Assembly: GCA_028277585.1 (NCBI GenBank)
Contig: JANQFY010000378.1
Span: 1 to 34,786, forward strand
DNA from: Sedimentisphaerales bacterium
GTDB lineage: Bacteria > Planctomycetota > Phycisphaerae > Sedimentisphaerales > Anaerobacaceae
Direction: 5' to 3'
Length of the DNA stretch: 34,786 nt
A model generated the notes under the pieces. That model saw only the letters and a program-made list of their open reading frames with translations, did not search any database and had not been told where the DNA came from. The translations under genes and the position numbers were made by a program. Shown here piece after piece: positions 82 to 17,500 of this stretch. Every line of letters begins with the position of its first letter. Within the stretch, counting starts at the first letter, position 1.

Positions 82-2298
82 TTAAAGGGGAGCAGTATAG
101 CGATCGTTTCGGTCTCCATCTTCGCGCTTGGCCTCCTTCGCCTGCGTTTCTCGTTTTCCGTGCTTCTCGACCCACTCGGCCCATCCGCCTTTGAAGATCA
201 CTACGTTTGAGTAGCCTTCCTCGATCAACCTGACGCCGACCTCCTCGGCGAACTTGCAGCCGGCACTTTGGCAGTACGCGAGGATGGGACTACCGGCAGG
301 GATCTTCGCGACGATCTCCTCCCATACCACGTCGTTGGCATCAACGGGCAAGTTAATCGCCCGCTCCAAATGCCCCTTTTCGAAATCGGACGCAAGTCGC
401 GCGTCAATGACAACGACATCCTTGTCGAGCAACTCGCGCGTCTTCTGTTCGGAAATCTTCGGAACAAAGGAGCCGGCATACGCCTTCTGGAGCGAAGCCG
501 TAGCATTCGCGTTAGCCAGCAGACCCTCACTGTGGGCAAAGTGATAGAGCACGCCGCCCATCAGTGCGGCCAGACCCAGTGCTACGCCCTGTCCGATCGT
601 CATGCCCATCACCCATCGCCGGGGCAATGCGCCGACCAGCGCGAGCCAAAGGCGTTTACCCAACCTCGCGACCACAATGATCAGCACGCCGACCATTGTC
701 CAGAAGAGCAACCGCTGACGATCGTGCCGAAACAGGGCGTCGATATTAAAGGGGCGATCCGAAAGGAACAGAACACGTCCATCCCAGAGAGACGCCAGAT
801 CCGCGAAAGAAACCAGCTTCGGCGCCTCAGGCGGATTGAATACCTTGGCCTTGCCCTTCTCCGTTCCGAGATACAGGGCGTAATGGTCATAGTCCTTGGC
901 CTCAGGGCCCGCCTTCACATGGAGAATCCCCTGGTGGGGAGACTTTCGCAGGGCCTTGGTGCTGAGCCTGGCGGCCACCCCGGCGTGGAAGCCGTAGTCG
1001 TGGGCGGCTCGATTCAATTCCGCCATCGAGCTGCCCCGCAGCCTACCGAAGTATTCCGGCTTGACCAGGTCACGAAAATCGGGCTCCAGTCCCTTGAACC
1101 TGAGAAGGGAGTAGATGCAATAGAGCCCACAATGGGCGCGAGGTTCCAGGTAGGGATTGATCCGTCTGACGAGCGGAAGCGGCTCGTTCGGATCGTCGTC
1201 GACCGGGAGAAGGTCCTCTTCTCGAGTGAGTTCCGGCGCCAGAGACGAATCACCTCCGTCGCCTGTCGACATCACGGTCTCCAGCATCCCGTCGATACGT
1301 TCGACGATGTCGTCATCGACGTGCTTGATCAGTTCGCCATCCTGCCAGACGTAACGAATGTGCGTGACGGGAACAATGATCACCAGCGTCCCGTTGGGAA
1401 CATCGTCTTCTTCAAAGGACCCCAGCGCCTCGTGGTCTGGGTTGGGGGCAAACTCCGTGATTTCGGCATGAGCCGTATCCGTGTAGCGCGTTCCTCTTAT
1501 GACGTATTCCCGCGTTCGAGTCGCCTCCGTGCCAATCCAGATCCCGTCGACACACTCGAAATGGGTCGTGTAATACGTCTCGCGAAACGTATCGAAGCCA
1601 GTGATTCGCCCGTAGCGCACGTGGCCGGCCGCCTTGGTCGTTTCGATCTGTCGCTTGGCAATGGCGAAACCATGCTCCGGATCGATCCAAATGGTGATGT
1701 CCCCATGGGTAGTGTTCGCATCGACGACATAACACGCGATGCCGTTGACCACTTCACGATCCTCCCGGAGGGACACGGAGCGAGTTTGGAGCAGGACCTC
1801 GTCAATGCGACGGAAGGAACCGGGGAAGTGACCCATGGCGAACGAGGCTTCGTGTCGGTATTGCAGAGACTTGATCTCATACTCTTTCATGCTAGGTTCG
1901 AGCGTCGCAAAATCATCATAGAAAAGCACCCCCGTGTCCTCTCGGTCCTGCTTGAGATACTTCCTATAGGTGTGGCCGTCCCACATAAGCCTGAGATAGG
2001 CGGCCTCCTCTGGGTGCAACGTGGTGTCTTTCGTCTCATTAACGTCCTGCCACAACCACTGTCGCTTGCACATTCGCCTACTATCGCTGCGCAGGTCGAA
2101 GTGCGTTAGGGTCCCTGGCCTTTCCTGATCATCCACGTGTGCTTGCGAACGGACTTCGCACTTGAGTCGCCAGGACGCAAACTCGTCCAAATTCTCTCTG
2201 CAATTGCGCAGCAATTGTGCAACATCCATGCTTGGCGCTGCCGTCGCTACCCTACAGACGCCCACCGCGACGACGAGCCATGTCAATGACGTACGCAT
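82..2298 (-). CDS. Exported LolA-like / C39-like peptidase / rhodanese membrane protein, copy A
   Basis: A 738-aa protein with a Sec signal peptide (about residues 1-21). Residues 25-320 resemble LolA-type outer-membrane lipoprotein carrier domains (WIDPEHG near 204-210). Residues 380-515 resemble a C39 (bacteriocin-processing) cysteine peptidase, with candidate nucleophile Cys390 in AHCGLYC and His472 in YDHYALYL. The place of the usual third catalytic residue (Asp in DP) holds Asn488 (FNPP). Two membrane segments follow (about 530-546 and 563-587) with a basic loop between them, so both the C39 and the C-terminal rhodanese domain (about 605-715, catalytic loop CQSAGC, Cys676) should face the periplasm. 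It aligns without gaps with the protein at 8138-10339 over about 700 residues. It lies 124 nt downstream of a Cys-rich peptide gene, its likely partner. The start follows a GAGGG Shine-Dalgarno. The domain calls are firm for rhodanese and moderate for C39; the substrate is unknown. Confidence 0.85.
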   Translation of the reverse strand: MRTSLTWLVVAVGVCRVATAAPSMDVAQLLRNCRENLDEFASWRLKCEVRSQAHVDDQERPGTLTHFDLRSDSRRMCKRQWLWQDVNETKDTTLHPEEAAYLRLMWDGHTYRKYLKQDREDTGVLFYDDFATLEPSMKEYEIKSLQYRHEASFAMGHFPGSFRRIDEVLLQTRSVSLREDREVVNGIACYVVDANTTHGDITIWIDPEHGFAIAKRQIETTKAAGHVRYGRITGFDTFRETYYTTHFECVDGIWIGTEATRTREYVIRGTRYTDTAHAEITEFAPNPDHEALGSFEEDDVPNGTLVIIVPVTHIRYVWQDGELIKHVDDDIVERIDGMLETVMSTGDGGDSSLAPELTREEDLLPVDDDPNEPLPLVRRINPYLEPRAHCGLYCIYSLLRFKGLEPDFRDLVKPEYFGRLRGSSMAELNRAAHDYGFHAGVAARLSTKALRKSPHQGILHVKAGPEAKDYDHYALYLGTEKGKAKVFNPPEAPKLVSFADLASLWDGRVLFLSDRPFNIDALFRHDRQRLLFWTMVGVLIIVVARLGKRLWLALVGALPRRWVMGMTIGQGVALGLAALMGGVLYHFAHSEGLLANANATASLQKAYAGSFVPKISEQKTRELLDKDVVVIDARLASDFEKGHLERAINLPVDANDVVWEEIVAKIPAGSPILAYCQSAGCKFAEEVGVRLIEEGYSNVVIFKGGWAEWVEKHGKRETQAKEAKREDGDRNDRYTAPL

Positions 2299-2422: not shown

Positions 2423-2791
2423 CTAGTAACAACTGCCGTTACGCAGGAAAGCGCATACGCCCAAACCCGTGCATGCGGTGCCGACCTTATGAGAGGTCCC
2501 TGTCGCGTCGCCGGCGGAGGAACAACTGACCACCGTGATGGGGCCTCCGGAGCACACCTCGCCTCCTTCCCAATTGCTGCACGACGTGTTGTAGTCGCCA
2601 TCACAGTATGTGCACGACCCAACAGCATTTGTACAAGCGACCCAGGGATTCTGCTCAATGGAGCAGACTGTGAAGCCACCCGTGACCAAATCCCCGGCAG
2701 TGCCGACCGGTGATGCGCCGAGATACACCGCCATCAGTCCCAGGGTCAGGCCAACCAACACCGAGAAGGATGAACACATCCTTGTCTTCAT
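2423..2791 (-). CDS. Cys-rich exported peptide, copy A
   Basis: A 122-aa small protein that I do not recognise as a named family. Its N-terminus is a leader with a hydrophobic stretch (about residues 8-25), followed by ASPVGTAGDLVTGGF, which ends in a double glycine at about residues 38-39. The remaining ~83 residues hold 10 cysteines, including a CxxC, and end in GSCY. The leader matches the copy at 10481-10849 in 24 of the first 40 positions, and eight cysteines map one to one (CxxC, C, C-SGG, C, C, C, C-Y), while most other core residues differ. The start has an AGGGAG Shine-Dalgarno 8 nt upstream. The next gene downstream encodes a C39-like peptidase/rhodanese protein. A Sec-exported disulfide-rich peptide is the simplest reading; processing after Gly-Gly by the C39 domain is inference. 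Confidence 0.8.
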   Translation of the reverse strand: MKTRMCSSFSVLVGLTLGLMAVYLGASPVGTAGDLVTGGFTVCSIEQNPWVACTNAVGSCTYCDGDYNTSCSNWEGGEVCSGGPITVVSCSSAGDATGTSHKVGTACTGLGVCAFLRNGSCY

Positions 2792-2868
2792 GATACGATC
2801 TCCCTAATGTAGAGGACCATCTATTTCACACTGCTTCAGCACAGCGCGAGCAGCGCGACGACCACTGT

Positions 2869-2886
2869 TCAAGGGCCTCGAATCAT
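2869..2886 (-). CDS. Five-residue leader ORF MIRGP, copy A
   Basis: ATG ATT CGA GGC CCT TGA, preceded by TGGAGGTGA with 8 nt to the ATG. The stop is 77 nt upstream of the Cys-rich peptide start. The same five residues, the same stop codon and the same Shine-Dalgarno spacing occur at the matching place in copy B (10909-10926), where all four non-start sense codons differ only at the third base. That pattern suggests selection on the peptide rather than on the DNA. A role as a translated leader controlling the peptide gene is inference. Confidence 0.6.
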   Translation of the reverse strand: MIRGP

Positions 2887-2949
2887 GGCGCTCACCTCCA
2901 ATCACTCCCGCCTACGCGGATCCGACTCCACTACGGCTTCCGTTCCATA

Positions 2950-3019
2950 CGCGCATACACTCTCCGCTTCTTAGATCGGGGAACTATCGAGAAGAGACGT
3001 CACGACGCCGTCATCCTTG
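2950..3019 (-). promoter_or_regulatory. Conserved upstream boxes of module A
   Basis: Two blocks upstream of the MIRGP ORF are shared with copy B. Block 1 (2999-3019) is 21 nt identical to 11038-11058. Block 2 (2950-2962, GAGTGTATGCGCG on the minus strand) is identical to 10991-11003. Block-to-block spacing (36 and 34 nt) and spacing from block 2 to the MIRGP start codon (63 and 64 nt) are nearly fixed, while the DNA between them has diverged. I see no convincing -35/-10 pair, so this is called as a regulatory region only. Confidence 0.5.
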
Positions 3020-3111
3020 CCCTACATCCCGTCGCACCCTTGCACCGTATACCGCTAATTGTCTTCCTCCGCATCAAGTCACGCGATACGCTTCACCCAT
3101 CACGCACGACG

Positions 3112-3131
3112 GCAGCCGCGAAGCGGTCTGC
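3112..3131 (-). terminator. Hairpin abutting the prepilin A stop codon
   Basis: GCAG-CCGC, GAA loop, GCGG-T-CTGC: an 8-bp stem with one bulged T that touches the prepilin stop codon. The equivalent hairpin after the paralogous prepilin (11818-11836) is perfect with the same GAA loop. There is no U-run. Confidence 0.45.
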
Positions 3132-3913
3132 TAATACTCCTCGAATCCCTTCATCCAGTGCGGCCAGTCGCCGGGCGTCACGCCTCCGGCCGTCGTCCAG
3201 GGCCCGGCCGTGTCGAACTGGCGATGCCACTTGAACGTCCACAGTTCCTTCAAGCCTATCTTGCGCACCGACCAGTCCAGGAACAGTCCGTTGACCCCGC
3301 CGTCATGGCGGTTGATGCAGGCCTCCATGCTAACGGTGACGTTCCACCATTGAAAGCCGTCACCTTCCGGGGGGACCTCGCCTCCAGACGGTGCGACGAC
3401 CGTATTGACCCACTCTGTGAGCACGGGAATGTCGGGTCTTTGGCGCACATGTCCTGCCCAGGCGAAGGGAGCATAGGATGCATTGGGTAGGTAGAGCCAC
3501 CCATTCATACTGTAGCTGCCGTACAGTCGTTCCCGCCCCTCGTACTTCAGCGGTCCCCACGCCCGGAATGTATCACCATGTCGAGAGGGGTACTCGTCGT
3601 CCGGCCGATAGTCTCTATAGGTGGGCTGCGAAGCCATCGGACATAGGAGTAGATCGTTGCTGTCCGCGTAGTAGGGCCGCAAGGAATAGATCCACTCGGA
3701 GCCCTCCGTCTGGGGAAAGGCGCTGTGGTTCTCCGCCAGGTAGGCCGCGAAGACAACGCCCCACTGCTTCAGGTTGGCCTGGCACAGCACCGCCCGGGCC
3801 TGCCTCCGCGCCCGCGATAGCGTGGGCAAGAGCATCGCCATCAGCAGGACCACAATGGAGATGACCACCAATAGTTCGATCAGCGTGAATCCGCTTCGTT
3901 TTCTCCCACGCAT
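3131..3913 (-). CDS. Prepilin-like protein (type II secretion pseudopilin type), copy A
   Basis: A 260-aa protein starting [20 protein letters not shown], the classic prepilin cleavage/methylation signal (cut after Gly8, Phe9 at +1, Glu at +5) followed by the hydrophobic helix that anchors pseudopilins. The C-terminal half carries [18 protein letters not shown], a variant of the planctomycete H-x9-DG motif with DW in place of DG, and ends GDWPHWMKGFEEY. The start at 3913 has GGAG 8 nt upstream, and the same start context recurs in its paralogs; an upstream in-frame Met at 3967 lacks this support. A paralog lies at 11837-12706 and a deletion derivative at 4133-4306. The gene lies upstream of the Cys-rich peptide and may be co-transcribed with the mini gene before it. 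Planctomycetes carry many such pseudopilins, mostly of unknown role. Confidence 0.85.
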   Translation of the reverse strand: MRGRKRSGFTLIELLVVISIVVLLMAMLLPTLSRARRQARAVLCQANLKQWGVVFAAYLAENHSAFPQTEGSEWIYSLRPYYADSNDLLLCPMASQPTYRDYRPDDEYPSRHGDTFRAWGPLKYEGRERLYGSYSMNGWLYLPNASYAPFAWAGHVRQRPDIPVLTEWVNTVVAPSGGEVPPEGDGFQWWNVTVSMEACINRHDGGVNGLFLDWSVRKIGLKELWTFKWHRQFDTAGPWTTAGGVTPGDWPHWMKGFEEY

Positions 3914-4019
3914 GGCTTCCGCTCCAATCCTCTCAACAGGAGCCCGCAAAACCGTTCGCTTTGTCATGCCTCGTGCTACAGATCTACCTCCCCTTTATTC
4001 CATGGCGATTCCCACGACA

Positions 4020-4132
4020 GCGATATGGACACAATTCTCAAAAAGAGAAGCCCTGACTCAAGCCGCAGCCCCCCATCCGCAGAACGACCACAGACCGAAC
4101 GGAGGATGCACCGCACTCCGTTTCATTCACGG
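4020..4132. repeat. Diverged repeat of 11637-11750 (module duplication)
   Basis: The non-coding stretch between the mini-prepilin stop and the full prepilin shares blocks with 11637-11750: ATGGACACAA, GACTCAAGCCGC, GACCGAACG and CACCGCACTCCGTTTCA-type strings in the same order. It marks the duplication that produced the two modules. No gene is seen in it. Confidence 0.6.
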
Positions 4133-4306
4133 CTAATACTCTTTGAACGGCCGCATCCAGTGCGGCCAATCGCCCGGCTGCACCCCGCGCGCCTGCTTCC
4201 GCGCGCGCGACAGCCCAGGCAACATCAGCGCCATCAACAGAACCACAATGGAGGTGACCACCAACAGTTCGATCAGCGTGAATCCGCTTCGTTTTCTCCC
4301 ACACAT
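4133..4306 (-). CDS. 57-aa internally deleted prepilin
   Basis: From ATG at 4306 the frame reads [20 protein letters not shown], then the pilin helix to SRARKQARG, and then directly [16 protein letters not shown]-stop. In the paralog at 11837-12706 these two blocks are separated by roughly 220 residues, so the whole globular domain is missing through a clean in-frame deletion. The Shine-Dalgarno (GGAG, 8 nt) and a promoter of the same layout as the other copies are retained. It could be a decaying pseudogene or a functional helix-only mini-pilin; the intact frame, signal and C-terminus keep the second option open. It lies upstream of the full-length prepilin at 3131-3913, with 219 nt between them. 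Confidence 0.7.
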
Positions 4307-4406
4307 GGCTTCCGCTCCGATCCTCTCCAGAAGGAGCCCTCAAACCAAGTCGCTTCGTTCAAGCCTCGTATCCAAGACGCCGCTTCACCACCGTCTCGTT
4401 CTCTCT

Positions 4407-4435
4407 ATGGTCCAATCCCCTCCACATCACGTCAA
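4407..4435 (-). promoter_or_regulatory. Sigma-70-like promoter of the mini-prepilin
   Basis: On the minus strand TTGACG, 17 nt, GACCAT. The same layout occurs before the other two prepilin starts (11501-11529 and 12806-12834), and the flanking sequence (GAACGAG, GTGAAGCGGCG) is also shared. Of the three -10 boxes this one is the furthest from consensus, so it may be the weakest. Confidence 0.55.
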
Positions 4436-4563
4436 GCGAAAACCCCGACACCTCGGCGCACGCCAACTCTCCCACTATCCAAGAAGCCACCCTCACCATC
4501 CCCACACCGACACCATTCTCGGACACGGTCGAAGACCCTCAGTATTCCCCTCCAAGAACTGCA

Positions 4564-4584
4564 AACTAGGGTCCGTCCCTAGTT
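4564..4584 (-). terminator. Hairpin downstream of the mannose synthase-like gene
   Basis: AACTAGGG, 5-nt loop, CCCTAGTT: a perfect 8-bp stem 27 nt past the GT2 stop. On the minus strand it is followed by TGC, so the U-tract is short. It probably ends the C39/rhodanese B to GT2 operon before the mini-prepilin promoter. The 4436-4563 stretch shows nothing else. Confidence 0.5.
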
Positions 4585-4610
4585 ATTCCTAGTTCTGCCG
4601 GACCTCCGTC

Positions 4611-5336
4611 CTATAGGCGACCCATCAGGGCGAGCAGGCGCAGACGCCATAGCCCCCAGAGCGCTTCGTAGACGATGTGCCGATCGAGCTTGGACCGGCC
4701 GGCCCTACGATCGGCGAAAACAATGGGGATCTCACGAATCCGCATCCCCAATTTCCAGACCCGATACGCGATCTCGATCTGGAAGACGTAACCGTTGGAC
4801 GCGATGCGGTCGAAATCGAGCCGCTCCAGGAGCGTCCGGCGGAAACACCGATAGCCGCTGGTGGCGTCCCGGACCGACATGCCCGTGATAAGGTGCGCGT
4901 AGAGATTACCGCACTGCGAGAGGAGCCGCCTTCGCAGGGGCCAGTTCTGCGTCCGTCCTCGCCGGATGTACCGCGACCCAATAATCAGATCCGCCTCGGC
5001 CGCCGCTTCGATGAATCGCGGAATCTCACGCGGGTCGTGCGAGAAATCCGCATCCATCTCAAGGGCGAGATCATAGCCCTGTTCCAGGGCGAAGCGGAAC
5101 CCCGCCAGGTAGGCGGTGCCCAATCCCAGCTTACGCGCCCTCTTGAGCAGGTGCACCCTCGGCGTCGCTTCCGCCAGCCGCTCGGCCAGAACGGCCGTGC
5201 CGTCGGGAGAGTTGTCATCGACCACCAGGATGTCCACCTGCGCCGCCTGCTCCAGCACTCGGGGAACCAGTCGGCGGATGTTCTCTCGCTCTTGATAGGT
5301 CGGAATGATAACCAGAACGCGTCCATTCGCTGCCAT
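4611..5336 (-). CDS. Polyprenyl-phosphate mannose synthase-like GT2 (DPM1 family)
   Basis: A 241-aa family 2 glycosyltransferase. It opens with VLVIIPTYQERENI, has VVDDNSPDGT (nucleotide-sugar binding) near residue 40, and the metal-binding DADFSHDP near 95-102, all as in dolichol/polyprenol-phosphate mannosyltransferases. Length and ending match the short soluble (DPM1-like) form without a membrane domain. Such enzymes transfer mannose or glucose from a nucleotide sugar to a polyprenyl phosphate at the inner face of the membrane, making the donor for GT-C enzymes. A GT-C-like gene lies two genes upstream in the same direction, which fits. The Met at 5336 has GGAGG 5 nt upstream; the Met just before it (5339) is only 2 nt from it. 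The sugar is not readable from sequence. Confidence 0.88.
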   Translation of the reverse strand: MAANGRVLVIIPTYQERENIRRLVPRVLEQAAQVDILVVDDNSPDGTAVLAERLAEATPRVHLLKRARKLGLGTAYLAGFRFALEQGYDLALEMDADFSHDPREIPRFIEAAAEADLIIGSRYIRRGRTQNWPLRRRLLSQCGNLYAHLITGMSVRDATSGYRCFRRTLLERLDFDRIASNGYVFQIEIAYRVWKLGMRIREIPIVFADRRAGRSKLDRHIVYEALWGLWRLRLLALMGRL

Positions 5337-5365
5337 CATGACCTCCCAAGCAATAGGGGCGGATC

Positions 5366-5420
5366 GGGACAGTCACCGGGTATCGCTCGCAGCATCCTAA
5401 CAAGACCGGGTGACTGCCCC
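5366..5420. repeat. Imperfect inverted repeat with GGGACAGTCACC arms
   Basis: Arms GGGACAGTCACC and GGTGACTGCCCC lie in the gap between the MauE/DoxX-like and GT2 genes. A related half-element (GTGACTGTCCC) appears near 13838-13848. It looks like a REP-type intergenic palindrome and could form a hairpin in the operon mRNA. No transposase of the RAYT type is in this window. Confidence 0.45.
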
Positions 5421-5431
5421 GTCATCGGTTG

Positions 5432-5956
5432 TCATAGTTCCAGCGCCGGATCAATGACGGCCGGTTCGGCCTCGGTGCGCTCGGCCGCTTCGGTTGGGGC
5501 CAGCCATTGCCTGGGCGCCAGCAGGATCGTCCCGGCATAGGCCGCGGCGCTGATCAGCATGATCACGATCGCGCGGATCAGGGTCAGGTAGCTGATCTTG
5601 CCGGCCGCGTTGCTGCTGAAGCACCCGCAACTGATGTCCAGCTTGCGGATCAGCGCCGAGGCCAGCACAAACGTGAACATCGCGCCCATCGCCGTGCTGG
5701 CCAGCAGCGCGCCGCCCACGAAGACGCCGCCCACCAGACAGATCCCGACGAACAGTTCCAGCCAGGGCAAGGTCATCGCGACCAACACGCCCAGTTTCGG
5801 CCCGACCAGTTCGTATCCATAGACGTCACTGAGAAACGCGTAGGGCAAACGGATCTTGGGCAAGCTGCTGGCGATGAACATCGCGCCGAGAACCAGCCGC
5901 GTCACCAACACGAATCCGCCCAACGCCCCTTCCCTGCTCGGCAAAGACAATCGCAT
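5432..5956 (-). CDS. MauE/DoxX-like membrane protein
   Basis: A 174-aa protein with about four membrane segments. It opens with GGFVLVTRLVLGAMFIASSLPKI, typical of DoxX/MauE proteins, and carries the ISCGCFS motif that MauE-type members keep between segments 3 and 4. MauE is needed for maturation of disulfide-rich methylamine dehydrogenase, and DoxX relatives act in thiol and sulfur chemistry in the membrane. Beside two exported rhodanese proteins and Cys-rich peptides, a thiol-redox job is plausible but inferred. The start at 5956 has GGAGG 6 nt upstream. A Met six codons earlier (5974) overlaps the previous stop as TAATG but has no Shine-Dalgarno. Either way it is tightly coupled to the upstream gene. 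The C-terminal 25 residues are acidic and variable-looking. Confidence 0.75.
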   Translation of the reverse strand: MRLSLPSREGALGGFVLVTRLVLGAMFIASSLPKIRLPYAFLSDVYGYELVGPKLGVLVAMTLPWLELFVGICLVGGVFVGGALLASTAMGAMFTFVLASALIRKLDISCGCFSSNAAGKISYLTLIRAIVIMLISAAAYAGTILLAPRQWLAPTEAAERTEAEPAVIDPALEL

Positions 5957-5973
5957 ATCAAACCTCCGGTTCA

Positions 5974-8163
5974 TTAGTTTTGAGTGTCGAGTGTTGAGTC
6001 TTGAGTTTCCGATTCGGAGTCTTCAGTGGCGTCTCCGGCCTCCGGCCTGCCGTCTCCCGCCTGCGTCTCTTCCGTCCTTGCTTTCGCCACCAGCCGGTCG
6101 AACTGCACGCGCGGCGACTCGATATACGGCCGCTCCATCTCGTACGCCCGCAAGTGTTCCTCGATCCGCGTCGCCAACTCATCGCGGCGCAATCGCCGCG
6201 CCATCGTCAGCGCCTCCTGCGCCGTCTCCACCGCCTTGGCGTACTGCGCATCGGACGCATACGCCGCCGCCAGCACATCCAGCACACCCGCGTCCCGCCG
6301 GTCGCTCCGGGTCGCCGCTTGCTCGGCATACCCCAGCGCCTCATTCGGATCGCGAATCGCCTCGTCTGGATGCGTCGCCAGGAACCACGCCGCATCCTTG
6401 AGAGCCAAGAGGAAACTCGGATTGACCTGCAGCGCCTCCCGCAAGCGTTTGAGTCCTTTGGCGGGCTTGCCCGAGAAGGTTAGCGCCATACCCAGCTTGT
6501 AGTGCGCCGGGGCGAAGTCGGAACGGGTCTCGAGGATTTCTTGATACTGCTCAATCGCCCGATCGCAGTCGCCCGTGGCCAGGAGGATATTGCCCAGATT
6601 CAAATACGCCACCGTGAGGGTTGGGTCCGCTTCCAGTGCCTTCTGGTAATGCTCGACAACCTCCTTCGTATGCTGGGGCCCCTGCCGACTCAATGCGAGA
6701 GCGAGGTTGTAGTGCGCCACCTTGTCGTCGGGCGACGACGCCAGGGCGCGACGATAACACTCCACGGCCATGTCCGGCTGGCCGCGATGGGCATAGGCGA
6801 CACCGAGGCTCGAGTTCAACTTCGGAGCGTCCGGCTCGGTCTCCAGCAGATACTCGTGCAACTCCACGGTGTCGCGCCACCGACTCTGGTAGCGGCGCAA
6901 GGCGACGGTCTCAGCGCCCGCAGCCGCGACCAAGACAACGAACAGGACGACCTGTCGGATGGCTCGCCTGCGCTCGGGCGCAGCGTCGATAAACCATCGG
7001 GCCAAGGCGGCCAACACCATGAGGAACCCCAGCGCCGATAGGTAAAGATAGCGATTGGCGGCAATCGTCGGCGTCACGCTGATGATCCCCATCGCCGGAA
7101 AGATCATGACGAAGAAGATCAGCCAACCCGTTAGCGGGGCCCGCGTTCTCCGGTGCGCGAGAATCAGCGTTGGAACGAGTAAGGCCGTTCCTATGACACC
7201 GCTCAGCACGGCCGGACTGCGCAAGCTCATGGGCGAAGGGAAGCCGTAATAGGCCGACATCGCCGCGGGCCAGAAGAACTTGTGGAGGTAGAAGACAATG
7301 TTGTGACATAGAACCAGTGGGATGCGCCACGGATCGTAGTCACCGGGCAGCTTCGCCGGCGCGGTGAGTTGCTGAGACACGAAGATAACAACAGCAGAGA
7401 GCACCCCGATGGTAAACAAGGGCCATTTCTCTACAACCGCTTTGCGGCTTAGTCGCTTCAGGGGCCAATGATCGAGCAACAACATCATCGCAGGCAATGG
7501 AACGGCGATCGGTTTGCACAGCAGCGCCAGAGCATAGGTCACGCAACACCCAGCGAAGTGCCGGCGCCGCCGCTGCTCGGCAAACTGCAGGTAGAAGATC
7601 AATGACCACAACGCGAAGAACGCCGAGAGGACGGTCTTGCGTTCGCTAATCCAGCAGACCGACTCGACCGACAAAGGGTGCAGGCCGAACAACAGCGCCA
7701 GACCGGCCGCGACGCCGGGGCGACCGAACAGCAGATAAAGGAACACGCCCAGCAGCGCCGTATTGGCCACGTGGAAGGCCAGGCTCGTGCGGTGGTAGGT
7801 TCGCATGCTGTCGTAGCGGCCCGACATCTCACGGTCCACCATCAGCGAGATCATCGTCAGCGGCAGATAGAACCCCGGGATGGTCGAAGGCTCCCAGACC
7901 TCTACGACAAACCGCCGGGTCGATTCCCACGACGGGTTCTGCACGAGCGGGTTTTGCAGCGCGAAGTGGTGATCGTCGAGATAGGTCGCGCGGGCCGAGA
8001 GGCTGGGCGTGTGGACCAGCGCGACCACCGCACAGGCGGCGATCAGCATATACGCCAGCAGCCGTTTCCGAGTGGTCGCGCCGACCAGCAGCGCCGCCAA
8101 CGAACCGGCCGGGCCGGGCGCCGTCGCGACAGCCCGCTCAGACAGGTAAGTCGTCGTCCGCAT
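5974..8163 (-). CDS. GT-C/TMTC-like multi-pass protein with C-terminal TPRs
   Basis: A 729-aa protein: a hydrophobic N-terminal half with roughly ten or more membrane segments, then TPR repeats (about residues 430-640) and a charged tail. YLDDHHFALQNPLV, just after the first membrane segment, places a DD pair in the first external loop, the site used by GT-C glycosyltransferases. The architecture matches TMTC-type O-mannosyltransferases and the similar bacterial TPR membrane proteins. Such enzymes use polyprenyl-phosphate mannose, and a synthase-like gene lies two genes downstream. The start at 8163 has AAGGAGG 9 nt upstream; a Met 13 codons earlier (8202) has none. It overlaps the end of the C39/rhodanese gene by 26 nt, so translation is likely coupled. 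The acceptor is unknown. Confidence 0.8.
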   Translation of the reverse strand: MRTTTYLSERAVATAPGPAGSLAALLVGATTRKRLLAYMLIAACAVVALVHTPSLSARATYLDDHHFALQNPLVQNPSWESTRRFVVEVWEPSTIPGFYLPLTMISLMVDREMSGRYDSMRTYHRTSLAFHVANTALLGVFLYLLFGRPGVAAGLALLFGLHPLSVESVCWISERKTVLSAFFALWSLIFYLQFAEQRRRRHFAGCCVTYALALLCKPIAVPLPAMMLLLDHWPLKRLSRKAVVEKWPLFTIGVLSAVVIFVSQQLTAPAKLPGDYDPWRIPLVLCHNIVFYLHKFFWPAAMSAYYGFPSPMSLRSPAVLSGVIGTALLVPTLILAHRRTRAPLTGWLIFFVMIFPAMGIISVTPTIAANRYLYLSALGFLMVLAALARWFIDAAPERRRAIRQVVLFVVLVAAAGAETVALRRYQSRWRDTVELHEYLLETEPDAPKLNSSLGVAYAHRGQPDMAVECYRRALASSPDDKVAHYNLALALSRQGPQHTKEVVEHYQKALEADPTLTVAYLNLGNILLATGDCDRAIEQYQEILETRSDFAPAHYKLGMALTFSGKPAKGLKRLREALQVNPSFLLALKDAAWFLATHPDEAIRDPNEALGYAEQAATRSDRRDAGVLDVLAAAYASDAQYAKAVETAQEALTMARRLRRDELATRIEEHLRAYEMERPYIESPRVQFDRLVAKARTEETQAGDGRPEAGDATEDSESETQDSTLDTQN

Positions 8164-10339
8164 TCTTCTCAGCCTCCTTCTGGGGCGTTTCGGGTTCGCC
8201 ATAGCGCTTGACCCAGTCGACCCAACCGCCTTTGAATATCACGATATTGTCGAACCCCTCATCGATGAGCTTGAGACCGATCCGCTCGGCGTACTTGCAC
8301 CTGGCGCTTTGACAATACGCGACGACAGGGCGTCCTCGGGGGATCGTCGAAATCGTCGCTTCCCAGGTCGCGTCGTTGACGTCGACGGGAAGATTGATCG
8401 CGTCCTTGAGATGTCCCCTCTCATAGTCCCGCGCGTATCGAGCATCGATCACCACCGCGTCTTTGCCGAGCAACGTGCGAGCCTTCTGCGCGGATATTTT
8501 GGGAATGAAATTACTCGCGTGAGCCCTCTGGACGCCCACGGCGCCGACGGGATTCGCCAGGTACCCTTCGTCGTTGAAGAAGTGATAGAACCCGCCGAAC
8601 AGTAGTGCGACCAGAGCCAACGCCGCCGCTTGGCCGGCCGTCAGGCCCAGCACCCAGCGGCGCGACAGCATGGGCGCCAGCACCAGCCAGCACCGCCTGC
8701 CCACATGGATGAGCAGGACGAGCAGGACGGCGCTCATGCCATAGAAGTAGAGCCGTTCTCGGTCGGGTCGGAAAAACGTGTCGATATCGAACGGACGCTC
8801 GGAGATGAACAGCGCGTAACCATCCCAGACGGGCGCCAGATCCGCGAAGTCCACCAGCCTGGGCTCCTCCGGAGGGCTGAACAGCTTCGCCTTGCCCTTC
8901 GCCGTCCCCAGGTACAGCGCATAGTGGTCGTAGTCCCTGGCATTGGGTTGGGCTTTGACGTGCAGAATTGCTTGGCAGGGGGACTGCCGCAACGCCCGTG
9001 TACTGAGCCGAGCCGCAACGCCCGCGTGGAAGCCGTAATCGTGCGCCGCCTGATTCAACTCGGCCATTGAGCTGCCTCGTGTTCGTCCAAAGTACTCCGG
9101 CACGACCAGATCGCGAAAGTCGGGATCTAGACCTCTCAGCTTGAGGAGAGAGTAAATGCAATAGAGCCCACAGTGAGCCCGAGGCCCCAGATGAGGGTTG
9201 ACCTGCCTGACAGGTGGACGCACCTCGTTGGGCTCGTCTGCCCTGGCCACCGCATCCTCGTCTCGTGCGGTCCGCGAGTGTATCGACAGGCCGTTCTGGT
9301 TATCCGTCGGCATCATGGTTTCCAGGATTCCGTCGATTTGCGCGACAACATCGTCGTCCACATGCTTGATCAGTTCGCCATCATGCCAGACATAACGGAT
9401 ATGCCCGACGGGGATGACAATCACCAGCGTCCCGTTGGGCACGTCATCCATCTCAAATGAACCGAGCGCCTCATGGTCGGGGTCGAGAACAAACTCCGTG
9501 ATTGTCACATGCGACGTGTCCTTGTATTCCTTTCCGCTGCCTGTACGCTGCTGGCGCCGAATTGCCTTCGTTCCGAGCCAGGCCCCGTCGAATTGCTCAA
9601 ACCGAAGGATCTCAACCGTCTCTGAAGACGTATCGAACCTCAATGCCTTGCCATACCGAATATGACCGGCGGCTTTGTTCACCTCGATCTGTCGCCTGGC
9701 GACTGCAAAACCGTGCTGCGGATCGATCCATACCGTCAAGTCCCCTACTGAGGTCTCTCCGTCCAGGACGTAGCAGGGAATGCCGTTGACTTCTTCGAGT
9801 TCGTCTCGAAGGGAGAGCGTCTGTGCGTGGCGCAGGACCTTGTCGATCCTCTCGAATGTCCCGCCGAAGTAGCCCGTGGCAAACGATGCGTAGTGCTGAT
9901 ACTGCAGGGACCCAATCTCATACGCTCGTCCGTCCTCGTCGAAAGCAGCCAGATCGTCGAGGAGCACTGTGCCCGGATCGTCTCGACCGCCTTTGTGGTA
10001 CTTCCTGTGGGTCTGCCCATCCCATGTGAGGCTCAGGTAGTTGGCCCCTGCGAGATCCAGATCCTCTTTCCGCGCCTCTTCGGCATCCATCCACCACCAG
10101 CGCCGATTGCACAGGCGCACTCCATCGAACCTCAGGTCGTAGATCGAGAGGCTATTCGGTTCCTCTTGTCCGTCGATCGACCGCTCTGTCAGCACTTCAC
10201 ACTTGAGATGCCACGATCGAAGTTTGTCCAGATTCGCAGCACATCGGTCGAGCAGTTGCGAAACATCCACTTCCTGGGCACCCGCGTCCATAGCGCACGC
10301 GAGAAGCATGATTCCAAAGCACATCACAACCTTCAGCAT
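8138..10339 (-). CDS. Exported LolA-like / C39-like peptidase / rhodanese membrane protein, copy B
   Basis: A 733-aa paralog of 82-2298, colinear with it residue for residue until near the C-terminus, so Cys390, His472 and the rhodanese Cys676 fall at the same numbers. The third catalytic position is Ser488 (FSPP) here. The rhodanese loop reads CQSARC. The signal peptide contains MLLAC (Cys15), so lipoprotein processing cannot be excluded. Two membrane segments lie at about 530-547 and 563-588. Compared with copy A, the LolA-like part and linker (about 345-380) vary most, while the C39 core and rhodanese part are nearly the same. It follows the second Cys-rich peptide gene and overlaps the start of the GT-C-like gene by 26 nt, making it the first long gene of the C39 - GT-C - MauE/DoxX - GT2 operon. 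Confidence 0.86.
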   Translation of the reverse strand: MLKVVMCFGIMLLACAMDAGAQEVDVSQLLDRCAANLDKLRSWHLKCEVLTERSIDGQEEPNSLSIYDLRFDGVRLCNRRWWWMDAEEARKEDLDLAGANYLSLTWDGQTHRKYHKGGRDDPGTVLLDDLAAFDEDGRAYEIGSLQYQHYASFATGYFGGTFERIDKVLRHAQTLSLRDELEEVNGIPCYVLDGETSVGDLTVWIDPQHGFAVARRQIEVNKAAGHIRYGKALRFDTSSETVEILRFEQFDGAWLGTKAIRRQQRTGSGKEYKDTSHVTITEFVLDPDHEALGSFEMDDVPNGTLVIVIPVGHIRYVWHDGELIKHVDDDVVAQIDGILETMMPTDNQNGLSIHSRTARDEDAVARADEPNEVRPPVRQVNPHLGPRAHCGLYCIYSLLKLRGLDPDFRDLVVPEYFGRTRGSSMAELNQAAHDYGFHAGVAARLSTRALRQSPCQAILHVKAQPNARDYDHYALYLGTAKGKAKLFSPPEEPRLVDFADLAPVWDGYALFISERPFDIDTFFRPDRERLYFYGMSAVLLVLLIHVGRRCWLVLAPMLSRRWVLGLTAGQAAALALVALLFGGFYHFFNDEGYLANPVGAVGVQRAHASNFIPKISAQKARTLLGKDAVVIDARYARDYERGHLKDAINLPVDVNDATWEATISTIPRGRPVVAYCQSARCKYAERIGLKLIDEGFDNIVIFKGGWVDWVKRYGEPETPQKEAEKNADDDLPV

Positions 10340-10422
10340 GGCTCACCTCATGATCTAGGAACGAGCACATCACCTCTGGAACCCCCGTAGTAAGATGGGG
10401 TCACATCCCAAAGGTATGGAGC

Positions 10423-10453
10423 ACGTCGAACGCCCTCACTGAGCGCTCGACGT
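10423..10453 (-). terminator. Intercistronic hairpin, peptide B to C39/rhodanese B
   Basis: Outer arms ACGTCGAACGC and GCGCTCGACGT pair with one G-U wobble; the GTCGAGCG core is shared with the hairpin at 2363-2393 in the same intercistronic place. There is no U-run. Conservation of the stem despite divergence of the loop and flanks suggests a function in the mRNA. Confidence 0.55.
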
Positions 10454-10480
10454 ACTCATATCACAGCATATCAGCACTTC

Positions 10481-10849
10481 TCAGTAGAAACACGAGCCGC
10501 CGTGAATCCACTCGCATCCCGGGTCACCACTGCAGTACCCCGGACTGCCTGCCCCCGACACACCCCATGCATCCTCCGAACGGGCACAACTTATGGCGGG
10601 GACGCTTCCGCCAGAGCAGTCAAGGCCACCGGCGTAGTAGTCACAGGACGCATACCAGACTAGCCTGCATTCGCCGCAGCCACTCGACCAACTGGCGGCC
10701 ACTGGCTTTCCGCTTATCAGTGTGACCCAGAACCCGCCAGTGACGAAATCACCGGTTGCACCGACCGGCGACGCAACAATCCACATCGCCGACAACCCCA
10801 GGGCTAGGCTCACCAGTAGCAAGAAGGGGGAGGACTTTCGTGTTCGCAT
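10481..10849 (-). CDS. Cys-rich exported peptide, copy B
   Basis: 122 aa, the same length as copy A. The start at 10849 follows AAGGAGAT with good spacing; a longer in-frame reading from 10957 would run through the MIRGP ORF in another frame and is not supported. The leader (MRTRKSSPF, hydrophobic stretch, ASPVGATGDFVTGGF) closely matches copy A, with the double glycine at about 38-39. The core has eight cysteines: CGEC, then C, C-SGG, C, C, C and a terminal GSCFY. All eight map to copy A, whose two extra cysteines are absent here as a pair, so both cores have an even number. The family is unknown to me. An exported disulfide-bonded peptide served by the adjacent C39/rhodanese protein is the working reading. 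Confidence 0.8.
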   Translation of the reverse strand: MRTRKSSPFLLLVSLALGLSAMWIVASPVGATGDFVTGGFWVTLISGKPVAASWSSGCGECRLVWYASCDYYAGGLDCSGGSVPAISCARSEDAWGVSGAGSPGYCSGDPGCEWIHGGSCFY

Positions 10850-10908
10850 CACGTAATCTCCTTTGATGAGTTTCATTCTCAGGGCTTCCACGCTTTCGAC
10901 AGCCCCTT

Positions 10909-10926
10909 TCACGGTCCCCGGATCAT
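10909..10926 (-). CDS. Five-residue leader ORF MIRGP, copy B
   Basis: ATG ATC CGG GGA CCG TGA, with AAAGGAGGTGA placed 8 nt from the ATG. The stop is 59 nt upstream of the Cys-rich peptide start. Relative to copy A, every non-start sense codon differs at its third base and every change is synonymous. See the copy A entry for the interpretation. Confidence 0.6.
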   Translation of the reverse strand: MIRGP

Positions 10927-10990
10927 GACATTCACCTCCTTTGTACTCCGCTCGCACGGGATCTCTATGGTTGGTGGTTACTCTGCAATG

Positions 10991-11058
10991 CGCGCATACA
11001 CTCCCCGTCGTAAGCCAAGGGGGCTCAAAAAAGACATGTCACGACGCCGTCATCCTTG
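10991..11058 (-). promoter_or_regulatory. Conserved upstream boxes of module B
   Basis: Block 2 (10991-11003) and block 1 (11038-11058) are identical to 2950-2962 and 2999-3019, with near-identical spacing to each other and to the MIRGP start. The core of block 1 (GTCATCCTTGAC on the plus strand) appears once more near 11754-11765, downstream of the full prepilin. Confidence 0.5.
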
Positions 11059-11500
11059 ACATACATGCCGCCCCATCCAGGCGGTGTTCATCCCTGACGA
11101 TCTTCCTCCGCAACTCTCCCTTCATCGGTTGGCGCTGCCGGGCCCAACGCCCATGGACTGCGCGTCACAACTGGTGCTCTTCCGATTTCCGCATCCATTC
11201 AGCTCAATGCTATCACACGTCACGACAGCGCCGGTTCTAGCGTCACCAGGTGATCGCAGACACAGATCGCCACCGGTGGTTCGATGGGCGCAGACAGATT
11301 GCCGCGCCGATCATTCCCACACAGGATCGAACGGTTGAGGCCATAGCCGCACCCCTCGCTCTGCGCTCAAGCCGACAGCAAACTGGACTGAATCTCTCCC
11401 ATGCATGGCTTCCACTCCCTTGAACAAGGAGTCCGCACATCGTTTTGCATTCGCAAGCCTCGTACCCGAGACGCCGCTTCACAGTCGCCTCGTTCTCTTC
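11059..11500 (-). other. Relic of a second prepilin gene; no intact gene
   Basis: A start-like site at 11404-11406 keeps the prepilin context (GGGAG, GGAAGCC, ATG, then a GGGAG-like codon run) but the following frame does not encode FTLIELL and stops after 28 codons. The upstream sequence resembles the other prepilin 5' regions, and the downstream sequence joins the boxes of module B, so the coding body appears deleted or scrambled. Nothing else is seen in 11059-11400. Confidence 0.5.
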
Positions 11501-11529
11501 ATTGTCTAACCGCGCCCGCACAAGGTCAA
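11501..11529 (-). promoter_or_regulatory. Orphan prepilin-type promoter
   Basis: Minus strand TTGACC, 17 nt, GACAAT: the best match to the sigma-70 consensus of the three prepilin promoters, although the prepilin it served is gone. Transcripts from here would run into the MIRGP/Cys-rich peptide region of module B. Confidence 0.55.
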
Positions 11530-11636
11530 GCGGAAATCCCAGAAACGCCCGCACTTTCTTCTAGACACCCCGCGCCGCCTTTCCATTTCGGCGCGGACCT
11601 ATCTCCCGTTACTTAGGAAGCGTCCCTCATCACCGC

Positions 11637-11836: not shown

Positions 11837-12706
11837 CTAGTACTCCTTGAATCTCCGCATCCATTGCGGCCAGTCGCCGGGCTGCACGCCCCCCGCCTTG
11901 GTCCACGGGCCAGCGGTGTTGAATCCGCGGTTCCACTCAAGCATCCAGAGCTCCTTCAAGCCCACCTTGCGCACCGACCAGTCCAGAAACAGCGCATTAA
12001 CACCTCCCTGATGCCGGTTGATACAAGCCAACCACAAGTGGCCGACATGTGTTCCCATTTGAGCTTCATAGGCGGGGGGCTCACTGAGCGGCGCTGCGTC
12101 GGTGTACCACCACATGCAATCGAGCAGGTACGGTACGTTGGAAACGCCCCTGAGAGCATATGGCTCAGAGAAGTTGCTCTTCCGGCCGAGGGGATCGTCC
12201 GAGGAGATGACACCCATGTTCTGCCCATAGCTACCCATGATGCTCTCGTCGCGATAGATGGCGAAATAAGCAGAGAATGTGCCGCCGTAGATCCCGGCCG
12301 GCGCGGGATCGGGCACTCTGGTCGCGGAAGGGCAGAAAGCGAGATCGGGGGAATCCGTGAAGGGAATGCAGTTATGAAACAGCCCGAAAGCATAATCCCC
12401 CTCTGGATCCAGGCCATAGTTTGGGAATCGCCCATCGTTGTTTTCAATAGCAATAAAGATGCCCGCACCCGCCTGCCGCAGCCGAGACTGACAAACCACC
12501 GCACGCGCCTGCTTCCGCGCCCGCGACAGCGCGGGAAGCAGCATCGCCATCAGCAGGACCACGATGGAGATGACCACCAGCAGTTCGATCAGCGTGAATC
12601 CGCTGGACGCACCTCTCACTCCGGAGGAAACCTCTCCATTCCAATCCAGCTTGGCCGGACCTCCGGTCGAGATAACAGAACGGCTGAATCGTCTTCTCCC
12701 ACACAT
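11837..12706 (-). CDS. Prepilin-like protein, copy B
   Basis: A 289-aa protein. Unlike copy A it has a 27-residue insertion between the start (MCGRRRF) and the prepilin motif [14 protein letters not shown], giving an unusually long pre-sequence of about 35 residues. The helix and SRARKQAR block then match copy A and the mini gene. The centre (about residues 80-220) is largely different from copy A, and the end is again conserved ([21 protein letters not shown], then [18 protein letters not shown]). The start at 12706 has GGAG 8 nt upstream; a TTG 12 codons earlier is less likely. A promoter lies at 12806-12834. The product is probably a surface pseudopilin with a variable middle domain, of unknown function. 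Confidence 0.83.
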
Positions 12707-12805
12707 GGCTTCCGCTCCGATCCTCTCAACAGGAGCCCTCAAACCAAGTCGCCTCGTTCAAGCCTCGTATCCGAGACGCCGCTTCACAGTCGTCTCGTTC
12801 TTTCT

Positions 12806-14527: not shown

Positions 14528-17500
14528 TCAATCGGCGTTGGGATTGAGTTGATCGAACAACTCATCAAGTTCCGAGGCGCGGGCGTAATCGAAGGCCCGT
14601 CGGTGGTCCAGGTTCTGAATCCGGGTGTCGGCCTTGTGACGGAGGAGAATCTCGCAAACATCGCGATGCCCTCTTCGGGCGGCCAGATGCAGAGGCGTAT
14701 TGCCCCGGTTGTCCTGGACATCGATGGTCGCCTCCTTCGCGAGCAGATACGATGTCAGATCAGCAAGCCCCTGGTCGGCCGCCATGTGCAGAGGGGTCTG
14801 CCCCCCTTGCGAGCGACAATCGATCTGACCTCCATGGTCCAGCATGAGATCGAACAGCGCCTGGTTCCGCAACGCCATGTGCAGCGGGGTCAGGCCCTCC
14901 CTCTTATCTCTGATGTTCACGTCGGCCCCCGCTTGCACCAGCATCTCCGCAATCTCGAACGAACCACGAAAGACAGCAAAGTGCAGAGGACTGCGTCCGC
15001 GCTGAACCGAGCGGTCCGGGGCAACGGTGTTGCAGTCGGCCCCGTGAGCGAGCAGCATCGCCACCATCTCGCCCTTCCTGGCTTGGACCGCTCTGGCCAG
15101 TGGGGTCAGCCCCCCTCGGTCCAGGACGTTGACATCGGCGCCATGGGCAAGCAACAGCTCCATGATCTTGCGATTGGAGTTCCAGGCGACCAGGTGAAGA
15201 AGCGACGACTCCTCAAAGAGTCCTTTCACATTCACGTCGGCCCCATGGGCGATCAGCAGAGGAATCATCTCATCGGTGTTCTTCTCGACCTCGGAGAAGA
15301 GTAGAGCTGAGGCAACGGAGGCCGGCATCCTAGGAAGAAGAAACTCGACGACCTCCACGTGACGCTGGTCATGGGCGCGTGAGATCGCGTGCAGGCGTTT
15401 CCTGTCACGAATATCGAGGCGCATGCCCTGGGCGACGAGCTCTTTGACACGATCCAGATCGCCCGCCCAGGCCGCGAGGTGCAGGGGTGTCGTACCCGTT
15501 TCGAGCAGCGCCTGGACCAACTCGGCGTCGGCTTGGGCGCCGTGTTTCAACAAGGCCTCGACGATCTCACGCTGCTGTTTCGCGGCCGCAATGTAGATCA
15601 GCGGGTCACCGTTTGGCGTGAGAACATTGCCGTCGACGCCACTTTCCAGGAGGCGCTTGAACGTCGCGAGCCGATTCCGCTGGTAGGCCAGGTACAGGGA
15701 ATCCTCACCGTCGGCGCCGGCCGCGATCAGCTGCCGGATGATGTCACTGTGCCCCTCTGCTACCGCGATCTCCAAAGGCGTATGGGCGGGCCGGTTGAGT
15801 ATCGGCAAACTGATCCCGTCCGGCAGACGGCCGGCGCCAGCGATGTGGGCCCCGTGAGCCAGCAGGATCTCCACGCATTTCTCATTGCCACTGGTGACGG
15901 CACTGTGCAAGGCGGTCCAGCCTTCGGTCGACGGTGTATTCACGGCAGCGCCGTGACTGAGAAAGGCCTCCAACAGGGCAGGAGACTCCAGCGCCGCCGC
16001 TTGATGGAGAGGCGTCACGCCCTGATCGTTCTGCACATTGACTCGCAGGCCCTGCCCGACGAGCTTGACCACATAGTCTGCTGTTTCGGCTTTCTCCTCA
16101 GCCTCCATCGTCCGACGCGAAAGGAGCAAGAGAAGAGCGGTGTTGCCTTTGTCGTCCACAGCATTCGGGTCGGCGCCCTGGGCGATGAGCAAGTCAATCA
16201 CATCGAACGCCCCCCGGTAGGCCGCAGCCCCGACGTGGAGCGGTGTTGCATTGGCCTTGTTTCGAGCGTTCACATCGGCGCCGTGTCGAACCAGCAATTC
16301 GACGGCTTCCAGATGACAATGGCTGGCGGCGCCATGCAGCGCCGTCTCGTTGGCGTCGTTCACTGCATCGACTGGGGCGCCGTGCCTGAGCAATAGCTCC
16401 AGAACCTCCGCGTGGGGCCCACTGATCACGTCCCAATAGCGCGTGCTGCCACTCTGGGTGGCGGCATGCAAAGGGGTGGCGCCATATCTATCGGTCGCAT
16501 GGACATCCGCGCCGAGGGCAAGCAGGTCGGCAACGACCTGCTCCCTTCCCCACCAGGCGGCTCGATGGAGCACCGTTCCTGCGGTGTCGCCATGCGGCTC
16601 GAAATTGACACCTGCGTCGATCAGCAGGCGCGCCACCCGGGCCGATTGGGTGAGTAAGGCCTCTTGGGGGATTCCATATGAGAAATCCGGCGCCCCGCTA
16701 TGACGGACGAGCAGGGGGAGGATCTGTCGCTGTCGGTCTTTGAGGGTCTCGAACCGAGCGACCTCATTGGGATCGCGCGAGAAACTGTGGTGCTGCGCGA
16801 TTCGCAGGGCGATCGTCACTGGACTCACACGTCTTTCATCCCGAGCGCTCGCATCCGCGCCCTGGGCGAGCAACCACTTAACGGCGGACACCTGCCCGGC
16901 CTTGACAGCCGCGTGTAGCGCCGTGCGACCCTCGGTATCGATGGAGTCGACCTCGATACCGCTGTCGAGGAGCGCCGCCATGGTCTCAAGAGCGCCCAGG
17001 CTCGCGGCGCTGTGCAGGGTCATTCGGTCCTGCTGCGGCGCGAGCAGTTTCACAATCTCCTCACTGCCATTGCGAATGGCAATGGACAGAGGGGTTTGCC
17101 CCTGCTCATCCCTGGGATTGGGAGCCGCGCCATGGGCGAGGAGTTGCTCCACAGCGGCGTGATCCTTGTAGGCCGCCGCCGAGTGCAAGGGTGTCTGCCC
17201 CGTCTCTGTCGCCGTGTTGACCTTGGCGCCGCGGGCCAGGAGCGCTTCGACCGTCGCGGGCGTGCCAAACAATACGGCATCATGCAGCGGTGTCCGACCC
17301 CAACCGCTGACGGCGTTCAACTCGGCGCCTTGGTCGAGCAGGAAGGTGACCAACTCGGCATTGCCCGCCGCGGCGGCGTGATGCAGCGGCGTCTCGCGTG
17401 CGTTGCGATAGGACCCCCCTTCCACCTCCGGCGACTGGACATTGACCTTGGCTCCGTGCTTGATCAAGAGCTTGCACATGGGCAGATCACCGTAATCGGC

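Follow-up and report, generated by a model that had tools for sequence, protein, structure and literature searches.

Two similar cysteine-rich peptides encoded near C39-like peptidase genes in a planctomycete genome raise the question of whether they belong to a maturation system of their own and, if so, how such a system would work. The stretch of DNA in question (the window) comprises positions 1 to 34,786 of contig JANQFY010000378.1 (assembly GCA_028277585.1, Sedimentisphaerales bacterium), in which peptides A and B are each followed by a gene coding for a fusion of LolA-like, C39-like and rhodanese domains. The answer rests on two observations: peptides of this kind accompany most of the C39-rhodanese cassettes that were collected in Planctomycetota, and 22 of them, the window pair included, form one family. 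In most cassettes a third gene, coding for a redox membrane protein of the MauE type, is present as well.

Pairing of cysteine-rich peptides with C39-rhodanese genes

Both 122-residue open reading frames (ORFs) reported in the first-pass annotation were confirmed and lie on the minus strand, the plus-strand reading being ruled out by internal stops. Peptides A and B are 42% identical overall (E 3e-19, single comparison), and their alignment agrees with the earlier count of 24 identical positions among the first 40 residues, eight core cysteines in register, and 10 and 8 cysteines in the respective cores; peptide A has one further cysteine in its leader. By segment, identity amounts to 59% in the leader, 35% in the core and 27% in the core minus the shared cysteines, and the C39-rhodanese regions of the two fusion proteins are 63% identical.

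The peptides were originally regarded as a pair sharing one protease, a view that had to be given up: each peptide gene has its own fusion gene directly downstream, so that the window contains two complete copies of the cassette. The two fusion proteins (58% identical) pass the Pfam cut-offs for both Peptidase_C39 (PF03412; 34.6 and 35.0 bits, cut-off 22) and Rhodanese, which bears out the nature of the neighbour as first described. In a tree of 23 C39 regions copies A and B are sisters (support 100/99), which fits a duplication within this lineage, and a third copy is present on another contig of the same genome (L008; peptide 4105-4512, fusion 4714-6906). Because the window starts with the first base of the contig, anything downstream of fusion A is outside the view.

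When 84,980 species genomes were scanned with a pattern, 11 loci came up, all of them titled Planctomycetota or groups therein. Searches for the C39-rhodanese region gave matches in 14 of 397 genomes of the class, 12 of 89 of the family and 7 of 392 of the phylum, sets that overlap and include the source genome; five genomes of the class set (G375, G397, G106, G286, G236) in which only the end of the query (transmembrane helices/rhodanese) was matched were dropped. Of 61 relatives searched with the fusion protein, 16 had a match, 12 of these in the N-terminal, LolA-like half only. Altogether 24 distinct C39 cassettes were collected, a set that leaves out the Cys-less loci L075 and L076 (genome G190, with MauE) and the contig-edge fragment L074. 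An intact Cys-rich leader peptide was found at 19 of the 24 and a broken remnant at one more (L039), and at three without a peptide (L041, L102, L108) the contig end cuts the upstream side. Co-occurrence in other genomes, which the first-pass annotation had proposed as a check of its reading and by the lack of which it would have let that reading fall, was thus observed, with every profile match but one at a cassette.

When a profile of the peptides was run on the 19 carrier genomes (E 0.1), 14 had a match and none lay away from the cassettes. At E 0.001, 8 of the 89 family genomes and 5 of the 392 phylum genomes matched, all of them known carriers; since these matches are themselves members of the profile, the information lies in the absence of orphan peptides. 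In the family of G719 (170 genomes), eight genomes had a match, that of G909 being L047 itself, and three peptides were new. Those of G913 and G911, from the genus of G909, adjoin LolA-C39 genes, the G911 cassette also having MauE and the G913 contig ending inside the C39 gene. The third, at a contig end in G842, is the sole profile match not seen at a cassette.

That the peptides are related is evident from a held-out test, in which each was removed together with its near relatives and the profile of the rest was run on 1,867 ORFs: 21 of the 22 ranked above all non-peptide ORFs, the exception being L109 (E 0.31 versus 0.27 for an unrelated ORF). The 22 peptides form one family without a Pfam or NCBIfam model. 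No match to NCBIfam was obtained at E 0.1, Pfam gave two families with one member each, which were taken as chance-like, and the best hit of a PDB profile search reached E 0.46 only. A profile of the two window peptides pointed to three further weak places in their own genome (E 0.11 to 0.97), which were judged to be chance. By a numerical peptide criterion, devised after the peptides had been seen, 17 of the 18 ORFs selected in 364,687 bases are at a cassette. The same criterion selects a peptide within 1.2 kb upstream of 15 of 20 anchors (among them L037, which is absent from the 364,687 bases); of the other five, L105 and L106 have their peptides downstream, L107 and L109 have them upstream but beyond the limits, and L110 has none.

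All 22 peptide genes start with ATG and have a Shine-Dalgarno-like stretch upstream (by eye). The Sec-like leader with a double-glycine-type site, noticed first in the window pair, recurs throughout the family. A hydrophobic stretch is present in each leader (the best 15 residues average 1.57 to 3.65 on the Kyte-Doolittle scale), preceded by 0 to 4 Lys/Arg residues, and so is a G[GSA] pair, which would place the cut after residue 36-42 in 21 peptides and after residue 26 in L109; the sites are motif-selected, one pair having been chosen per leader (the later if apart, the first if overlapping). Position -4, which had no part in this choice, is V, I, L or M in 14 of 22, four of these 14 being near relatives of L105/L106. 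The cores comprise 58 to 88 residues with 6 to 12 cysteines (at least eight in 14 of 22), and the alignment of the family contains two invariant core cysteine columns and three more conserved at 90% or above, which defines a shared cysteine scaffold. Such a leader-core layout would fit precursors of ribosomally synthesised and post-translationally modified peptides (RiPPs).

The core had also been called hypervariable. This description suits the window pair, applies strongly to L105/L106, slightly at most to L047/L136 and not at all to L135/L136. Over all 231 pairs, raw identity is 0.31 for the leader, little different from the 0.29 of the core, and 0.22 for the core without the shared cysteines, the leader exceeding the latter in 178 pairs; the ratio of non-synonymous to synonymous substitutions in the core was unusable, as silent sites are saturated. 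A strong case is that of L105 and L106, two genomes in which C39 and MauE are 95% identical and which have two and three peptides in a row (L105:5423-6306, L106:5026-6454). Between L105a and L106a DNA identity is 92% over 90 upstream bases and 92% in the leader, 55% in the core and 60% downstream; between L105b and L106b it is 75% in the leader, 58% in the core and 95% downstream. The simplest reading would be that in these two genomes paralogues have swapped cores while promoter and leader stayed in place. As a general rule, this has against it L047/L136, where identity is 59% in the leader, 59% over the first 60 core residues and 50% over the whole core, and L135/L136, where it is 92% in the leader and 94% in the core.

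The fusion protein and its MauE partner

The C39 part of the fusion, modelled with AlphaFold2 (predicted local distance difference test, pLDDT, 80), matches ComA (3k8u; TM-score 0.77 by target) and LahT with its leader (chains of 6mpz) at 2.2-2.8 A. Catalytic residues were compared in 24 proteins, a set that takes in L075, leaves out L039 because of its interrupted frames and thus differs from the 24 cassettes. In 23 of them both Cys and His are retained, L075 being the exception; the third position is occupied by Asp in 18, by Asn in four, by Ser in one and by Ala in one (L075). In genome G190, two C39-like genes without the catalytic Cys (L075:8412-10066, L076:8107-9764) are preceded by genes for proteins of 800-844 residues and followed by MauE, and no Cys-rich peptide is seen nearby. 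That the Cys is lost where no peptide is seen fits a cutting role of the C39 domain.

The N-terminal domain is LolA-like: its AlphaFold2 model (pLDDT 82) has as the top Foldseek match 3buu, a member of the LolA superfamily (E 1.4e-7; TM-score moderate, 0.36 by query and 0.51 by target), and the matches that come next include MucB, LolA and LprG. Relatives of this domain that lack the C39 part, some in tandem pairs, were also seen (G023:C56, G033:C87, G017:C603 and others). The rhodanese domain has a CX4C cysteine pair in all 23 proteins that possess it.

According to the positive-inside rule, loops rich in Lys and Arg stay cytoplasmic. The loop between the two transmembrane helices of the fusion has at least three such residues in 22 of 24 proteins (L046 has two; L109, with a very short loop, none), which would place C39 and rhodanese outside, and the N-termini are hydrophobic in most of the proteins, split versions included (by eye).

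The MauE of the window scores 76.9 bits against PF07291 (cut-off 27), and a MauE gene is present in 22 of the 24 cassettes, the two without being window copy A, at the contig end, and L044. It is the next gene in most cassettes, the TPR (tetratricopeptide repeat) protein gene intervening in window copy B and L039, and in L008 it lies on the opposite strand.

Proposed maturation route and its rivals

Taken together, these data make it rather probable that the locus is a dedicated maturation cassette, in which a Cys-rich precursor is exported by Sec, a periplasmic C39 peptidase cleaves it after G[GSA], and MauE and rhodanese handle its thiols. Outward C39 cutting combined with this thiol chemistry is the best-supported mechanism, all of its catalytic steps being inferred. 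The precursor would enter the Sec pathway via its hydrophobic leader and remain in or near the inner membrane, where the fusion would be anchored by its two helices with the LolA-like, C39 and rhodanese domains in the periplasm, a placement suggested by the hydrophobic N-termini and the Arg/Lys-rich loop. As indicated by the motif, the peptidase family and the pairing, C39 would cut after Gly-Gly, Gly-Ala or Gly-Ser near residue 39 and free the core. MauE and the two-cysteine rhodanese would then oxidise or otherwise handle the core thiols, the task of the LolA-like domain would be to hold either the hydrophobic leader or the product, and in some lineages the membrane TPR/glycosyltransferase-like protein may add sugars. 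What results would be a peptide, secreted or displayed at the surface, in which a common cysteine scaffold is combined with otherwise variable sequence; that it acts outside the cell in recognition or conflict is a guess.

Several findings weigh against this account. The C39 Gln at -6 is present in none of the 24 proteins, and at the third catalytic position copy B has Ser, and four proteins (one of them copy A) have Asn. On the substrate side, Leu-7 and Glu-8 of classical leaders (ComA consensus) occur in 0 of 22 peptides, and some leaders contain additional G[GSA] pairs. Seven peptides have nine core cysteines, one of which is left unpaired, so that there would be at least one spare thiol, possibly used for a dimer bond, a persulfide or a glycan anchor. 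L135/L136 show no excess of leader over core conservation (92% and 94%). Locus L110 has an intact C39 gene and room upstream, and no peptide is seen; in L039 (positions 1-2631, the cassette of G372) the fusion frames and the peptide are interrupted at the contig end, either by decay or by sequencing error. Reading the ORFs by eye brought up neither an exporter of the outer membrane nor an immunity gene; profiles for such genes were not run. Finally, orphan peptides may have been missed, as the candidates scored per genome numbered at most 54 in the set of 89 genomes, 12 in that of 392 and 28 in that of 170.

Some type 1 secretion systems have a C39-like domain that holds the substrate. An analogous explanation would be that the C39-like domain of the fusion is a non-cutting substrate holder, that signal peptidase removes the leader and that the fusion serves the peptide as a chaperone or thiol scaffold. 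The missing Gln, the replaced Asp of both window copies and the Cys-less L075 agree with it, as do the Ala sites, potentially suited to signal peptidase, that precede Gly-Gly in several leaders (by eye), and catalytically inactive C39-like domains are mentioned in the available part of PMC5557850. The retention of Cys and His in 23 of 24 proteins over deep divergence, however, speaks for catalysis, the more so as no peptide is seen close to the genes in which the Cys is lost. Moreover, in LahT the Gln is 4.3 A away from the trapped intermediate and the His may take its role (PMC6363468, in the text available), so that its lack is not decisive, and FapD requires its Cys though it is periplasmic (PMC5557850). 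A non-cutting C39 domain is considered unlikely.

About as improbable is that the peptide is a small working protein of the envelope, engaged in electron or sulfur transfer or resembling the small subunit of methylamine dehydrogenase, which the cassette would mature. Such a role would suit the single peptide per cassette in most loci and the lack of orphans among the scored candidates, the sulfur chemistry indicated by the rhodanese, the odd cysteine count in seven peptides and the 94% identical cores of L135/L136; in the available text of PMC7794033, disulfide formation in a subunit of methylamine dehydrogenase is put forward as a speculative role of MauE. The envelope role is at odds with the variation of the core sequence and of the cysteine number from 6 to 12, with the two or three cores per machine in L105/L106, where core DNA seems to have been exchanged between two genomes with a 95% identical machine, and with the fact that no large partner subunit was noticed by eye in the cassettes. 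The very improbable notion that the peptide ORFs are products of chance or decay in the vicinity of a widespread C39-rhodanese gene, to which the lack of a database family beyond chance-like single matches might lend colour, is already contradicted by the start codons and ribosome-binding-like stretches of all 22, by homology across species in the held-out test and by the concentration at cassettes of the ORFs selected by the (retrospective) criterion.

Double-glycine processing has been known chiefly from the cytosol, as a step carried out within ATP-binding cassette (ABC) transporters. Compared with the C39 proteins of this kind (AMS, for ABC transporter maturation and secretion, or PCAT, for peptidase-containing ABC transporter; for instance ComA, LahT and PCAT1), the planctomycete cassette has in common the putative Gly-Gly/Ala/Ser site, the frequent aliphatic residue at -4 and the C39 fold, but its peptides lack Leu-7 and Glu-8, its C39 domain lacks the Gln, the leader has a Sec-like hydrophobic stretch, the protease would face outward, and the fusion includes no ABC transporter. 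The cassette would work like double-glycine maturation and is outside the PCAT/AMS class, because it has no ABC-transporter fusion; no ABC gene was noticed by eye among the cassette neighbours, on which no ABC profile was run. C39 domains with ABC transporters are described in PMC10318531, and LahT accepts leaders ending in Gly-Gly, Gly-Ala and Gly-Ser, Val-4 being held in a groove (PMC6363468); both statements follow the text available of these reports.

Also close in design are two C39 peptidases outside ABC transporters. One is FapD, from the Fap amyloid system of Pseudomonas: according to the available text of PMC5557850 it reaches the periplasm via Sec and its suspected targets are Gly-Gly/Gly-Ala sites, the actual target being unclear. 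The other, NapP, is described in that of PMC11798529 as a putative C39 peptidase, encoded on the Neisseria nap island beside Gly-Gly peptides and a FapF-like channel. They are accompanied by an outer-membrane pore (FapF/NapF) and by amyloid subunits or small cationic peptides, whereas the planctomycete C39 is fused to LolA and rhodanese parts, has MauE as a partner and is paired with Cys-rich substrates; no FapF-like gene was noticed by eye near the cassettes, and no FapF profile was run.

As for MauE, the available text of PMC7794033 reports three candidate RiPP families of Streptomyces (found by decRiPPter) in which a MauE gene is clustered with a precursor of at least eight cysteines, a number that 14 of the 22 planctomycete peptides reach in the core; these families belong to another phylum, and that text makes no mention of a C39-rhodanese protein, LolA or a Gly-Gly Sec leader. 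In the methylamine dehydrogenase MauE/MauD system a MauE-family protein likewise goes with a Cys-rich exported polypeptide, in a role speculated on in the same source, but the planctomycete cassette has C39-rhodanese in the place of MauD; no MauA/MauB or MauD was noticed by eye near the window cassettes, and no profile search was made for them. The earlier statement that no named system has this design was therefore too strong, given the published FapD and Streptomyces MauE clusters. As to the combination itself, among the matches listed from open-licence literature there was no paper on the combined cassette or on MauE with a C39 peptidase, from which absence from print does not follow.

With respect to significance, the C39 fold appears to have moved across the membrane and to have been joined to sulfur chemistry, together with a matched Cys-rich substrate. 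The cassette looks like an undescribed route to secreted peptides rich in (presumed) disulfides, and it adds a recognisable peptide family without a model to Planctomycetota, whose secreted peptides are, to our knowledge, little described. The role of exported C39 proteins is unsettled even for FapD, and the close pairing of substrate and protease with a likely site makes the present case directly testable. In its fullest form, which is possible and remains tentative, the account would amount to a new class of secreted modified peptides in Planctomycetota: exported by Sec, cut after Gly-Gly/Ala/Ser by LolA-C39-rhodanese at the outer face of the inner membrane, disulfide-bonded or persulfidated by MauE/rhodanese, in some lineages glycosylated by a cassette-specific membrane enzyme, and with cores swapped behind a fixed promoter and leader.

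Genes in and around the cassettes

The features of the window are listed in Table 1. The genes of MauE, the TPR protein and a family-2 glycosyltransferase sit between the two peptide-fusion units. Promoter- and terminator-like matches are about as frequent as in shuffled sequence.

Table 1. Positions of the cassette genes and their neighbours in the window.
Feature	Positions	Strand	Length	Remarks
Fusion A	82..2298	-	738 aa	architecture as fusion B; C39 site Cys, His, Asn
Peptide A precursor	2423..2791	-	122 aa	leader 1-39 (2675-2791); core 40-122, 10 Cys
Pseudopilin upstream of peptide A	3131..3967	-		PF07963
Family-2 glycosyltransferase	4611..5339	-		PF00535
MauE/DoxX-type redox membrane protein	5432..5974	-	180 aa	PF07291, E 2.2e-21
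Membrane protein (by reading)	5974..8202	-		C-terminal TPR repeats (by Pfam)
Fusion B	8138..10339	-	733 aa	hydrophobic N-terminus, LolA-like, C39, two transmembrane helices, rhodanese; C39 Cys390, His472, Ser488; rhodanese Cys676, Cys681
Peptide B precursor	10481..10849	-	122 aa	leader 1-39 (10733-10849); core 40-122, 8 Cys
Pseudopilin upstream of peptide B	11837..12742	-		PF07963

The TPR membrane protein, in which Pfam detects TPRs only, is presumably a TMTC-like glycosyltransferase. Its relatives lie beside or near the cassette in L008, L039, L044 and L104. In six genomes searched, close relatives (E < 1e-80) occur at cassettes only; two remote ones (~1e-39) are located elsewhere, and two cassette-bearing genomes have none. 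The family-2 glycosyltransferase, whose NCBIfam matches to AglJ and PpgS are far below the cut-offs, is perhaps a polyprenyl-phosphate-sugar synthase, its membership of the cassette being uncertain. An independent hint of glycosylation may be seen in L107:5526-6776, where MauE and a family-2 glycosyltransferase form one fused protein, with a PMT_2 gene coming next.

A pseudopilin gene is found upstream of the peptide in four loci (twice in the window, L042 and L040), the window members being, as we take it, of the H-X9-DG type. Since 25 matches of this subfamily of long pseudopilins, the window members included, are scattered over the source genome (G000), the pseudopilins were set aside and are probably a dispersed family rather than a part of the system.

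Farther along the window, positions 14528-18271 encode a protein of 1,247 residues that is ankyrin-repeat-like by reading. In L038 the cassette is flanked by two large Cys-rich proteins (6824-7702 and 10626-11621; 35 and 58 Cys), one of them with C-terminal TPRs, and the same two proteins are found at the same places in L048.

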